From positions 1 to 58,304 of the forward strand of contig PLYM01000250.1 of NCBI GenBank assembly GCA_003153375.1: DNA of 58,304 bases, in the 5' to 3' direction. Under the pieces are notes generated by a model, which saw only the letters and a list, made by a program, of their open reading frames with translations, was not told the origin of the DNA and ran no database searches. This stretch comes from Planctomycetaceae bacterium (GTDB taxonomy: Bacteria > Planctomycetota > Planctomycetia > Pirellulales > PALSA-1355). How positions within the stretch are numbered: the first letter of the stretch is position 1; the number at the start of each line of letters is the position of its first letter. Made by a program: the position numbers and the translations under genes. This document shows positions 5,880 through 26,526 of this stretch, one piece after another.

Positions 5880-5902
5880 GTTACCGGGGAGAACTGAACT
5901 AC

Positions 5903-6158
5903 TACCGGCTGAAGCCGGTAGGTTGGAGGAGATCGTGATCTACGGACTGAAGTCCTTCGCTCACGATTCGGCAATTCGAAAATTGTCCCCACCACCGTCG
6001 GGCTCCGTGCCCTCTTGTTGGCAGGTGCTTTCCTGAATCACCCGGTAATCCACACAAAATGGCACTTCAGGTCACAATGGCTGTGCGAACTCGTTTGGTA
6101 CTTTTCCACCCCCAAATTCTCGCAAAGCGAAGAACCTAAAGGTTTCGCCTGAAGGCGA
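5903..6158. repeat. Cluster of small palindromes with TGAA/TAAA loops
   Basis: The 380-base gap between 5880 and 6259 holds no gene but at least four short palindromes of the same design, a GC-rich stem closed by a TGAA or TAAA loop. They are TACCGGC-TGAA-GCCGGTA (5903-5920), GGAC-TGAA-GTCC (5944-5955, enclosed by a second arm pair TCGTGA/TCACGA), AACC-TAAA-GGTT (6133-6144) and TCGCC-TGAA-GGCGA (6145-6158). Similar loops in different stems suggest an extragenic palindromic (REP/BIME-like) family rather than a terminator; no T-tract follows any of them. No RAYT-type transposase gene is present in the window. Confidence 0.55.
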
Positions 6159-6259
6159 GGGATTTAGACCCATCGCAAGGACATTAAAGGAGCAGCCGCC
6201 GGATCGCCGAGTAGATCAGCCCTTGGCCTGGCCTACGTGCTCCGGCACATCGTCTCGAC

Positions 6260-23273: not shown

Positions 23274-24047
23274 ATGCAATTGGATGTGCGCGCGGCAGCC
23301 GCAGCGCTGAAAATACCCGAAACCACCCTCTTTCGCTGGATCGATCAGAAGCGACTGCCGGCCACCGGCGTCGACGGCCACTATCGATTTGGACGGGCCG
23401 AGTTGCTCGAGTGGGTCGCGAGCAATCGGGCCGATCTGGCCTGCGACCTGTTTGGCGAAGACTCCTCGATCAATCAGCCGCTGTTGCTCACCCCTGCGCT
23501 GGAAGCCGGCGGCATCCATTACGACCTGCCGGCCAGCAGCAAGCAGGAAGCGCTGCGCTCGCTGACGGGTAAGATTCCGCTACCGGCCGATTGCACGGGC
23601 GAAATGCTCTATCAACTCTTGCTGGCCCGCGATGCCATCGGCATTACGGTCGTGGGTCAGGGAATCGCCATCCCACATCCCCGTTGCCCGTTGATCCTGT
23701 CCGTTCCCCGCCCGACCTTGAGCTTGTGCGCCTTTTCGCCTCCGCTCGATCTGTCGCCCACGATTCGCCACGGCCTGAAGGCCCTGTTCGTGTTGATCAG
23801 CCCCACGATTCGCGATCATCTGCAACTCGTGGCCCGGCTGATGAGCCTGGTGCGTGACGACCGCTTTGTGCAGGCGTTGGCCGCGCAAAAATCGCCCGAG
23901 GCGATGCTGGCCGAGGTCCGCCGCATCGAAAAGGCCTTCTCCCCCACCGCCGCCTCGGCGACGACCAACGGCAGCTCGAAATCCGCCGGCTCCAAGAACG
24001 GCAACGTGCCAACTGCCAAGGGGCCCAAGAAGCCCGTTAGGTCATAG
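23274..24047 (+). CDS. HTH (excisionase/MerR-type) fused to PTS EIIA (nitrogen/fructose-type) domain
   Basis: A 257-residue protein with two domains. Residues 1-50 form an excisionase-like helix-turn-helix (VRAAAAALKIPETTLFRWIDQKRLPATGV, then HYRFGRAELLEW). Residues about 85-225 form a PTS EIIA type 2 domain with the phosphorylation-site histidine in GQGIAIPHPR (His135). The last 35 residues are a Ser/Lys/Gly-rich tail. The ATG at 23274 has AAGGA about 9 bases upstream. Proteins of this layout are known in planctomycetes and other phyla and probably respond to phosphorylation by the PTSNtr chain. The next gene downstream, 139 bases away, starts the hydrogenase-like pair and has its own promoter candidate. 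No EI or HPr gene is in the window. Confidence 0.9.
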   Translation: MQLDVRAAAAALKIPETTLFRWIDQKRLPATGVDGHYRFGRAELLEWVASNRADLACDLFGEDSSINQPLLLTPALEAGGIHYDLPASSKQEALRSLTGKIPLPADCTGEMLYQLLLARDAIGITVVGQGIAIPHPRCPLILSVPRPTLSLCAFSPPLDLSPTIRHGLKALFVLISPTIRDHLQLVARLMSLVRDDRFVQALAAQKSPEAMLAEVRRIEKAFSPTAASATTNGSSKSAGSKNGNVPTAKGPKKPVRS

Positions 24048-24080
24048 CCGTCCTTCGGCTCTTCATAGCTTCCTGCGCCG

Positions 24081-24109
24081 TCGACATCCGGTCGCGCGCC
24101 TCCTATATT
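24081..24109 (+). promoter_or_regulatory. Possible sigma-70 promoter of the hydrogenase-like pair
   Basis: TCGACA (24081-24086) and TATATT (24104-24109), spacer 17 bases, both five of six to consensus. The predicted start near 24116 gives a leader of about 70 bases to the ATG at 24187. Confidence 0.5.
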
Positions 24110-24186
24110 GAGTCTTCCAGGCGAGCCGGTTGAGACCACGGATTCGGCGGCAGCGCGGCGGCGAGTCGCCTGATAGAGAACCGTTG

Positions 24187-25716
24187 ATGGCCACATCGTA
24201 CGCTCAGTTGTCGCGCATTCCGCTGGCCGAGGCCGTGCGTCTGGCCGACATTCCCCGACTCCCGCTCGAGGCCTTTCGCGGCGCACTGTTCGACGAAACG
24301 AATCAGGGTAGCCGTGTCGCGGCCCTGTTTGGCCGGCCCCAATCGCCGCAGCTCGTTCGGCTCTATGCCGTGCTGACGCACGCCGTCGACGGCACGATCT
24401 CGCTGATCTCGTGCGATGTTTCCGATCGTTACGAATCGTTCACGCCGGCCTGCCCACAGGTCCATTGGTTCGAGCGCGAGATCGCCGAACAGTGGGGCGT
24501 CGTGCCCGAGGGACATCCCTGGCTCAAGCCCATTCGCTTTCATGCCTCGTATCGGCCGGGCCACGACGCCTGGTCGCGGACCGTGGGCGCCACGATCTGG
24601 CCCAGCGTCACTGACTTCTTCCAGGTCGAGGGACGCGAAGTACACGAGGTCGGCGTCGGTCCGGTGCACGCCGGCGTGATCGAGCCCGGGCACTTCCGCT
24701 TCCAGTGTCACGGCGAGCACGTGTTTCATTTGGAAATCTCGCTCGGCTTCCAGCATCGGGGCATCGAGCGGGCCCTGATCGGCGGTCCCAACAAGCGCAC
24801 GATCCCCTTCATGGAGACGCTGGCCGGCGACACCTCGATCGGTCACACGACCGCCTATTGCCAGGCGATCGAAACGCTCAGCCGCCGCCAACCGCCGCTG
24901 AGAGCGCAAGCCCTGCGCGGGATCGCGCTCGAGCTCGAACGGCTGGCCAATCACACGGGCGATCTGGGCGCGCTGGCGGGCGACGTGGGCTATTTGCCAA
25001 CGATGGCCTACTGCGGTCGGCTGCGCGGCGACTTCCTCAATGCCACGGCCGCGATCTGCGGCAATCGGTTTGGGCGCTCGATGGTGCGGCCCGGGGGGGT
25101 GCTGTGGGACGTCGATGCGGTTCGCGGCGAGCAACTCGCTTCGCGCTTGGCGCCGGCGTTAGTCGACGTCGACGGCGCGGCCGAGCTGCTCTGGAATTCA
25201 CGCTCGGTCGTCACACGTTTCGAGGACACCGGCCGCGTGACCAAGGAAGTGGCCGAAGCCCTGGGCCTGGTCGGGCCGGCGGCTCGCGCCAGCGGCATCG
25301 ATCGTGACGTGCGCCGCGACTTCCCCAGCGGCATCTATCGCTTTGCCCTGGTGCCGGCCATGCTCTGGACCACCGGCGACGTGTTTGCGCGAGCTTACGT
25401 TCGCTGGCTCGAAATTCAGCGCTCGGGCCAGTTCGTGCTCGAACAACTTCATGCCCTGCCGGCCACTGATCTGCGTGCCGAGACCGGACCTTTGGCGCCC
25501 GATTCGCTGGCCGTGTCGCTGGTCGAGGGTTGGCGCGGTGAGATCTGCCACGTGGCCATCACCGACCAGGCCGGCGCGTGTGCCCATTACAAGATCGTCG
25601 ATCCCTCGTTTCACAATTGGATCGGCCTGGCCATGTCCTTGCGCGATCAGGCGATCTCCGACTTTCCGCTGTGCAACAAGAGTTTCAACCTTTCGTACTG
25701 CGGACACGATCTCTAG
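24187..25716 (+). CDS. Complex I NuoC/NuoD-like fusion (hydrogenase-4/HycE-like large subunit without [NiFe] ligands)
   Basis: A 509-residue protein fusing a NuoC-like domain (residues 1-135, signature VHWFEREIAEQWG) to a NuoD/[NiFe] large-subunit-like domain (GVGPVHAGVIEPGHFRFQC and then LEISLGFQHRGIERALIGG). This is the layout of HycE/HyfG and of energy-converting-hydrogenase-related (Ehr) proteins. The first cysteine pair expected in a hydrogenase is absent (TLAGDTSIGHTTAYCQA, residues 211-227). The C-terminal DPCxxC is replaced by NLSYCGHDL (501-509), so [NiFe] binding is not expected. The ATG at 24187 starts MATSYAQLSR; an upstream GTG/ATG extension is arginine-rich and unlikely. The ferredoxin-NuoB gene begins 9 bases downstream. 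The true electron acceptor or substrate is unknown. Confidence 0.85.
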   Translation: MATSYAQLSRIPLAEAVRLADIPRLPLEAFRGALFDETNQGSRVAALFGRPQSPQLVRLYAVLTHAVDGTISLISCDVSDRYESFTPACPQVHWFEREIAEQWGVVPEGHPWLKPIRFHASYRPGHDAWSRTVGATIWPSVTDFFQVEGREVHEVGVGPVHAGVIEPGHFRFQCHGEHVFHLEISLGFQHRGIERALIGGPNKRTIPFMETLAGDTSIGHTTAYCQAIETLSRRQPPLRAQALRGIALELERLANHTGDLGALAGDVGYLPTMAYCGRLRGDFLNATAAICGNRFGRSMVRPGGVLWDVDAVRGEQLASRLAPALVDVDGAAELLWNSRSVVTRFEDTGRVTKEVAEALGLVGPAARASGIDRDVRRDFPSGIYRFALVPAMLWTTGDVFARAYVRWLEIQRSGQFVLEQLHALPATDLRAETGPLAPDSLAVSLVEGWRGEICHVAITDQAGACAHYKIVDPSFHNWIGLAMSLRDQAISDFPLCNKSFNLSYCGHDL

Positions 25717-25725
25717 GAACGGTCC

Positions 25726-26526
25726 ATGTTCAACGTCATCGCCCAGCGGCTGCAACAGGGGTTTCGCACCAGCGCCTATCCCAAGACCGAGCCGCAATTG
25801 CCCGACCGCTTTCGCGGCCTGCCGATCGTCGATGCCACGAAGTGCCCCGATGGTTGCCAAATTTGTGCCGACGCCTGCCCCACCAACGCCATGCTGACGG
25901 GCGACGGCACACTGCGCGTCGACATGGGCCGCTGTTTGTTCTGCGTCGAGTGCGCCACGGCCTGCCCCGCCGGCGCGGTGAGTTACAGCCAGGAATATCG
26001 CCTGGCCAGCCGCACGCGCGAGGGGCTGATCACCGATGGCCGCGGCTTCGAACTGGCCCAAGCGCTCGAGGGCACGACACGGCGACTCTTTGGCCGTTCG
26101 CTCAAACTGCGTCAAGTCAGCGCGGGCGGGTGCAATGGCTGCGAAGCTGACGTGAACGTGCTCAGCACCGTGGTCTTCGACCTGGCCCGCTTCGGCATCC
26201 AGTTCGTCGCCTCGCCGCGCCACGCCGACGGCCTGCTGATCACGGGCCCGGTGACCGAGAACATGCGGTTCGCGCTCGAGCAAACCTACGAAGCCACGCC
26301 CGCGCCCAAGATCGTGATTGCCGTCGGAGCCTGCGCCATCTCGGGCGGGCCTTACATCGATCTGGAACAAACCCACAACGGCGCCGACAGCGTGGTGCCG
26401 GTCGATCTCTACATTCCCGGCTGCCCGCCGCACCCTTGGACCATTCTGGATGGCCTGCTGCGGCTGCTCGGTCGGCTGGAAGAAGGTTCGCTCGAACGCC
26501 CCGCGCCCGCGGCGGCCGGCAAGTAG
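25726..26526 (+). CDS. Ferredoxin-NuoB fusion (hydrogenase-4/HyfI-like small subunit)
   Basis: A 266-residue protein. Residues 36-90 hold two [4Fe-4S] ferredoxin motifs: C40-x3-C44-x2-C47-x3-C51-P, with one extra residue after the first Cys, and C70-x2-C73-x2-C76-x3-C80-P. Residues about 125-255 form a NuoB/HycG-like domain with all four ligands of the proximal cluster (GGCNGCE Cys136/139, GACAISGG Cys203, PGCPPHPW Cys233). So an electron wire of three clusters is intact even though the partner lacks the [NiFe] site. In formate hydrogenlyase-type complexes these are two separate subunits (HycF/HyfH and HycG/HyfI); here they are fused. It is convergent with the enolase-superfamily gene, with 2 bases between the stops. 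Confidence 0.9.
   Translation: MFNVIAQRLQQGFRTSAYPKTEPQLPDRFRGLPIVDATKCPDGCQICADACPTNAMLTGDGTLRVDMGRCLFCVECATACPAGAVSYSQEYRLASRTREGLITDGRGFELAQALEGTTRRLFGRSLKLRQVSAGGCNGCEADVNVLSTVVFDLARFGIQFVASPRHADGLLITGPVTENMRFALEQTYEATPAPKIVIAVGACAISGGPYIDLEQTHNGADSVVPVDLYIPGCPPHPWTILDGLLRLLGRLEEGSLERPAPAAAGK

Follow-up and report, generated by a model that had tools for sequence, protein, structure and literature searches.

Two adjacent genes in a planctomycete genome are predicted to code for EhrL and EhrS, which would form the peripheral arm of an Ehr (Ech-hydrogenase-related) complex. We found no membrane-arm genes at this locus. Membrane arms of the Ehr type are present on other contigs of the same genome, and in trees these orphan arms group with another Ehr lineage than the one to which the catalytic pair belongs. 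On balance we favor an Ehr complex assembled from separate loci, in which the arm on contig C28 is supplied in trans to the pair.

Organization of the locus

We analyzed a stretch of 58,304 nucleotides (the window; G000:C237:1-58304) from a genome assembled in 291 contigs, 96% complete and 4% contaminated. The features discussed below are:

23274..24047, + strand: regulator with HTH_17 and PTS EIIA type-2 domains (Pfam), upstream of EhrL
24081..24109, + strand: promoter-like site TCGACA, 17, TATATT, between the regulator and EhrL (consensus match only)
24187..25716, + strand: EhrL, NuoC-NuoD-like (HycE-like) large subunit without [NiFe] cysteines (open reading frame, 509 aa)
24817..24846, + strand: former first [NiFe] motif (L1), TLAGDTSIGH, EhrL residues 211-220 (alignment)
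25675..25713, + strand: former second [NiFe] motif (L2), NKSFNLSYCGHDL, EhrL residues 497-509, at the C-terminus (alignment)
25726..26526, + strand: EhrS, NuoB-like small subunit with an N-terminal two-cluster ferredoxin domain (open reading frame, 266 aa)

Both open reading frames lie where the preliminary description had placed them, and the Pfam domains of EhrL (Complex1_30kDa and Complex1_49kDa) confirmed the NuoC- and NuoD-like architecture it had given the large subunit. The two genes are separated by 9 bp. As had also been described, they stand alone between the PTS regulator and a convergent enolase-superfamily gene downstream of EhrS, both recognized by Pfam. The junction between the regulator and EhrL is 139 bp (24048-24186). 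It was the one such site in 3.6 kb searched between and around these genes, versus a mean of 0.3 in shuffles. Elsewhere in the window, a 300-bp stretch (5890-6190) is 96% identical to part of contig C174 and is perhaps a mobile element.

EhrS contains Oxidored_q6 and 4Fe-4S domains. Alignment bore out the earlier statement that it keeps all four NuoB-type cysteines (C136, C139, C203 and C233) and two ferredoxin motifs (C40/44/47/51 and C70/73/76/80). In the 90 small-subunit rows kept of 93, each of these 12 positions has a letter in 88-90 rows, of which 82 or more show the cysteine.

The former metal site of EhrL

Relatives of EhrL in GTDB genomes number at least 581, and the best-matching 80 were kept, a sample that leans to close relatives. 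These 80 come from Planctomycetota, Verrucomicrobiota, Myxococcota, Acidobacteriota, Elusimicrobiota and Thermodesulfobacteriota (Geobacteraceae), among other phyla. The set of 97 Ehr large subunits used below consists of 101 aligned rows minus four distant ones (L074, L075 and the second matches in L107 and L148); two identical sequences, L073 and L135, are both counted.

Alignment with E. coli HycE and HyfG showed that both motifs are replaced in EhrL, the first cysteine pair at residues 213-216 (CGIC to AGDT, or VCGIC to LAGDT) and the second motif at residues 501-506 (DPCYSC to NLSYCG). The absence of both [NiFe] cysteine pairs, noticed in the preliminary description, was thus confirmed. 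None of the 97 Ehr large subunits, the window included, has either CxxC pair, so the missing ligands are a family trait. The proposal that lack of HypD argues against [NiFe] chemistry in this organism was dropped, because HypD is present on C3; no match to PF00374 was found in the window genome.

The altered positions are strongly conserved. E166, G214, D215, S503 and G506 are identical in 97/97 large subunits, and there are four near-invariant cysteines, C174 (97/97), C276 (95/97), C291 (97/97) and C505 (96/97), at positions that are non-cysteine in HycE, HyfG and NuoCD. E166 and G214 align with His38 and Tyr87 of Thermus Nqo4 (positions counted on the alignment), which we take to be the quinone-binding residues. 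On this alignment the EhrL pocket is therefore not of the [NiFe] kind, and it is not a standard quinone site either.

An AlphaFold model of EhrL built with 16 sequences has a clear fold (mean pLDDT 76, pTM 0.82), with pLDDT below 50 in the two stretches around the old metal pocket (residues 138-187 and 489-509). The best fold match to the model is HycE (7z0s_E, TM 0.79).

Placement in the Ehr family

Among solved sequences, the closest to EhrL are HycE of formate hydrogenlyase and then MBH alpha, with NuoD and other complex I subunits behind. Lacking the two [NiFe]-binding CxxC motifs, EhrL does not classify with the group 4 [NiFe] hydrogenases, and with E166 and G214 in place of the quinone-site His and Tyr of NuoD it does not classify with complex I. 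Two features of Ehr systems are present, a large subunit without [NiFe] CxxC pairs and a NuoB-type small subunit with four cluster cysteines; a third, antiporter-like and NuoH-like membrane genes in the same cluster, is absent from the window locus. In the EhrL tree the window sequence falls inside a group with Geobacter, Geomonas and other arm-carrying loci (the named G. sulfurreducens EhrL is absent from the alignment), which bears out the suggested resemblance to Ehr proteins. The other PF00346 proteins of the window genome, on C201 and C291, are just 27% identical to EhrL. The window pair adds two proteins to an established family, in a variant arrangement.

The window pair has the same fold and subunit plan as E. 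coli formate hydrogenlyase (HycE, HycG, HycF) and hydrogenase 4 (HyfG, HyfI). The first part of EhrS aligns with HycF and its second part with HycG. Unlike HycE and HyfG, EhrL lacks the [NiFe] cysteine pairs and ends directly after the second motif. The NuoC/NuoD and NuoB domains are shared with respiratory complex I (NuoB, NuoC, NuoD), although Nqo4 His38 and Tyr87 are replaced. Pyrococcus MBH alpha, the second-best solved match, keeps the first [NiFe] pair (CGIC), whereas EhrL does not.

The founding papers on Ehr are reportedly those of Coppi (2005) and Marreiros (2013). In Geobacter sulfurreducens, GSU0739-45 is described as Ehr, with EhrA, EhrC, EhrL and EhrS named in PMC7894505. The Geobacter large and small subunits belong to the same families as the window pair and likewise lack the [NiFe] ligands; the large subunit of Geobacter argillaceus (L147) is 55% identical to window EhrL. 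The Geobacter and Geomonas loci that we retrieved have arm genes beside the catalytic genes, unlike the window locus.

PMC10284858 and PMC6349859 place Ehr near group 4 hydrogenases, without [NiFe] ligands. The former states that its function is unknown, and the latter suspects that it couples cytoplasmic redox reactions to charge movement, perhaps with formate dehydrogenase. PMC7894505 reports that Geobacter Ehr subunits are more abundant on formate and suggests a link to hydrogen formation; this link is hard to accept because the metal site is missing. PMC13194489 treats Geobacter Ehr as non-functional. We considered a formate dehydrogenase partner in the window genome and rejected it: the best match to a formate dehydrogenase alpha subunit lies some 13 kb away from the C28 orphan arm, is of the FdhF/YdeP family and falls below the formate dehydrogenase cut-off. 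A second match is on C162.

Membrane-arm genes in the window, in a sister genome and on other contigs

No membrane-arm gene was detected in the 58-kb window at a threshold of 1e-8, and there was no PF00361 match on the contig. At a laxer limit there was one 50-residue match near 43 kb (E 0.005). A search of the junction for arm remnants, with the limit set at 10, gave short weak matches only, none of them convincing, the best being a HyfF-type match on the other strand (E 0.008).

In the sister genome G001 the corresponding locus has the order regulator, HyfB-, HyfC-, HyfE- and HyfF-type genes, large subunit, small subunit and convergent enolase gene, and its flanks match those of the window locus. 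The closest match in the window genome to the HyfF-type protein of this G001 locus is 48% identical (the C27 and C28 copies).

Searching the rest of the window genome for HyfB/HyfE/HyfF-like genes, we found two orphan arms, a HyfB-HyfC-HyfE-HyfF-type set of four open genes on C28 and a near copy on C27, whose DNA is 92% identical to it over 6.2 kb. The stretches around both arms were searched for catalytic genes and for remnants of them, and none was found. The C27 copy sits on a 12-kb contig, and its HyfE-like gene (L024, 5336-5965) has an altered end and gave no Pfam match; the C28 counterpart gave only a weak one. Several Ehr clusters (L103, L118, L122, L125, L133 and others) carry tandem HyfB-like genes, and the window genome's orphan arms carry one each. 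A Verrucomicrobia contig has a second, distant Ehr-like cluster (L148, 12464-19874; 40% identity) directly after the first.

Other antiporter-like genes of the window genome were rejected as Ehr arms. Those on C201 and C291 are on complex I-type contigs that carry NuoD-type genes, those on C257 are NuoM/NuoN-like, and those on contigs C73 and C174 adjoin DabA. The last two contigs hold two DabA-DabB-type inorganic carbon transporter modules (L022, 7854-13856, and L023, 4153-10162), each with NuoL-like and NuoM-like genes.

Frequency of the split arrangement

An arm gene lies within 9 kb at 88 of 96 EhrL loci (a census that omits L135), and at five more the contig ends within 7 kb on the 5' side. 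The remaining three, without arm genes, are the window and two loci of the planctomycete G007, one of which has 8.5 kb on the 3' side while the other is cut at 1.2 kb. Other contigs of G007 carry two orphan arms, so that both genomes with armless EhrL loci hold orphan Ehr-type arms. At one G007 locus (L059, 8477-10006, on C175) the large subunit is beside the regulator, and a small subunit was not found nearby. The split arrangement is unusual. A search of the open-licence literature (titles and abstract starts) found no description of an Ehr complex whose two arms are encoded apart.

Across 296 genomes of the order, the large subunit was found in 17 and an arm gene in 18, with both in 17/17 (hypergeometric 1e-26), at limits (about E 1e-100 for EhrL, E 1e-90 for the arm) that were fixed after the EhrL list had been seen. 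Of the 279 genomes without EhrL at these limits, one has an arm gene, which lies at the end of a contig. Both limits exclude G066, which shows 29% identity and has distant arm genes of its own. This co-occurrence is expected because the genes are mostly neighbors, and only the split genomes make it informative on pairing in trans.

Two Ehr lineages in one genome

The window and G001 large subunits are sisters (support 98) and belong to a planctomycete clade A (97) that includes G007, G031, G187, G221, G245 and others. In a tree of joined HyfC, HyfE and HyfF proteins (87 of 88 joined arms used), the arms of G007, G031, G187, G221, G245 and others make up a corresponding clade A (99). G000 and G001 have orphan arms that group instead in a clade B with G141, G051, G025, L103 and L122 (99), and the G001 arm at the Ehr locus is of a third type. 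The clade A arm is often already set apart from the catalytic genes, lying divergent to the pair in G187 and G245 and before the regulator in G221.

AU tests rejected trees in which the large subunits of the window and G001 were constrained to clade B (p 0.014) and trees in which the orphan arms of G000 and G001 were constrained to clade A (p = 0.0003); the groups were named after the first trees had been seen, which weakens both p-values. Support in the small-subunit tree was too low to speak for or against a placement of EhrS or a lineage mismatch. From these trees, the orphan arms of the window genome and its catalytic pair appear to belong to separate branches of the Ehr family.

Conservation of the pair and drift of the regulator

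Between the window and G001, dN/dS was 0.14 for EhrL, 0.18 for EhrS, 0.13 and 0.10 for two neighboring genes, and 0.33 for the regulator; these values average over the whole split (dS near 1) and have little say on recent time. Relative-rate counts gave no significant speed-up of EhrL or EhrS (chi-square 0.02 to 2.6). The window regulator was significantly faster (chi-square 6.9 to 13), with 34-41 versus 13-19 unique changes over five outgroups. Window EhrL breaks 0/81 positions that are invariant in the other rows; 75 of the 97 EhrL rows, the window included, have no such break. Thus the pair looks to have been kept while the regulator drifted.

We rejected the idea that a foreign arm had brought the G001 regulator along with it, because the regulators of G001 and the window pair up as sisters in the tree (97), and the window copy is the fast one. 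Across phyla, an HTH and PTS-EIIA regulator lies within 9 kb of 60/96 Ehr large-subunit genes (23274-24047 in the window; loci L100-L179). Its recurrence suggests phosphotransfer control of Ehr expression. No description of a conserved PTS-EIIA/HTH regulator beside Ehr was found in titles and abstract starts of the open-licence literature.

Proposed assembly in trans and its alternatives

In a complex assembled in trans, ferredoxin would be the electron donor. Electrons would enter via the two ferredoxin-type clusters of EhrS, as its motifs indicate, and would pass through the NuoB-type cluster to the EhrL pocket, which would correspond in position to the [NiFe] site of hydrogenases and the quinone site of complex I. 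By homology to complex I and formate hydrogenlyase, the reaction would presumably be coupled to ion movement by the membrane arm. The orphan HyfB-C-E-F-type arm on C28 would partner the pair despite its different Ehr branch. In favor of this reading are the family to which EhrL belongs, the orphan arms of the window genome and of G007, the clade A arms that are already set apart, and the constraint on EhrL and EhrS. The lineage mismatch could mean that the C28 arm and EhrL/EhrS do not fit. The N-terminal domains of E. coli HycE and NuoCD are key determinants of the assembly of their own complexes, according to PMC7050243; if these domains steer assembly in the same way here, partner fit would be a real question for a cross-lineage Ehr pair.

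The preliminary description had raised the idea of a soluble electron-transfer enzyme, to hold if no antiporter-like membrane genes sat elsewhere in the genome and to give way to an ordinary complex if related genomes carried arm genes next to the pair. In such a reading the pair would be a ferredoxin-dependent oxidoreductase without a membrane arm, and the C28 arm would serve something else. The arm missing from the 58 kb, the different lineage of the orphan arms, the pair's own promoter-like site (a consensus match only) and the conservation of EhrL and EhrS are all consistent with this. It is weakened by the HyfB-HyfC-HyfE-HyfF-type genes on C27 and C28, by the arm that G001 has between its counterparts of the regulator and EhrL, and by the arm genes within 9 kb at 88/96 related loci. 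The orphan arms in both genomes with armless loci, and the finding of EhrL without an arm gene in 0/296 genomes at the limits used, also speak against it, and we regard a soluble enzyme as unlikely.

A decaying remnant, left after deletion of the arm in this lineage, would be in line with the arm that G001 has at the same locus, and with the treatment of Geobacter Ehr as non-functional in PMC13194489. The fast-evolving regulator could reflect such decay of the locus. Decay is nevertheless distinctly improbable given that both open reading frames are intact, that no invariant EhrL position is broken and that neither EhrL nor EhrS shows a significant rate increase. We also considered an assembly artefact in which an arm between the regulator and EhrL was dropped from the contig. 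The 291 contigs and 4% contamination leave some room for it, but synteny with G001 continues on both sides of the junction, the window genome has nothing closer than 48% to the HyfF-type protein of the G001 locus, and G007 also has a regulator and EhrL without an intervening arm; an artefact is very improbable. Assembly in trans thus remains the reading that we prefer.

Ehr complexes are widespread. Few parts of the family are as well conserved as the altered metal pocket, and this speaks against Ehr as a dead hydrogenase. As a tentative proposal, the halves of Ehr may be exchangeable, with a catalytic arm of one lineage running in this genus on a membrane arm of another lineage that is encoded elsewhere and was re-paired with it in evolution. 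A natural case of arms with separate loci and different lineages would point to peripheral and ion-pumping arms being swappable, which bears on how complex I arose.
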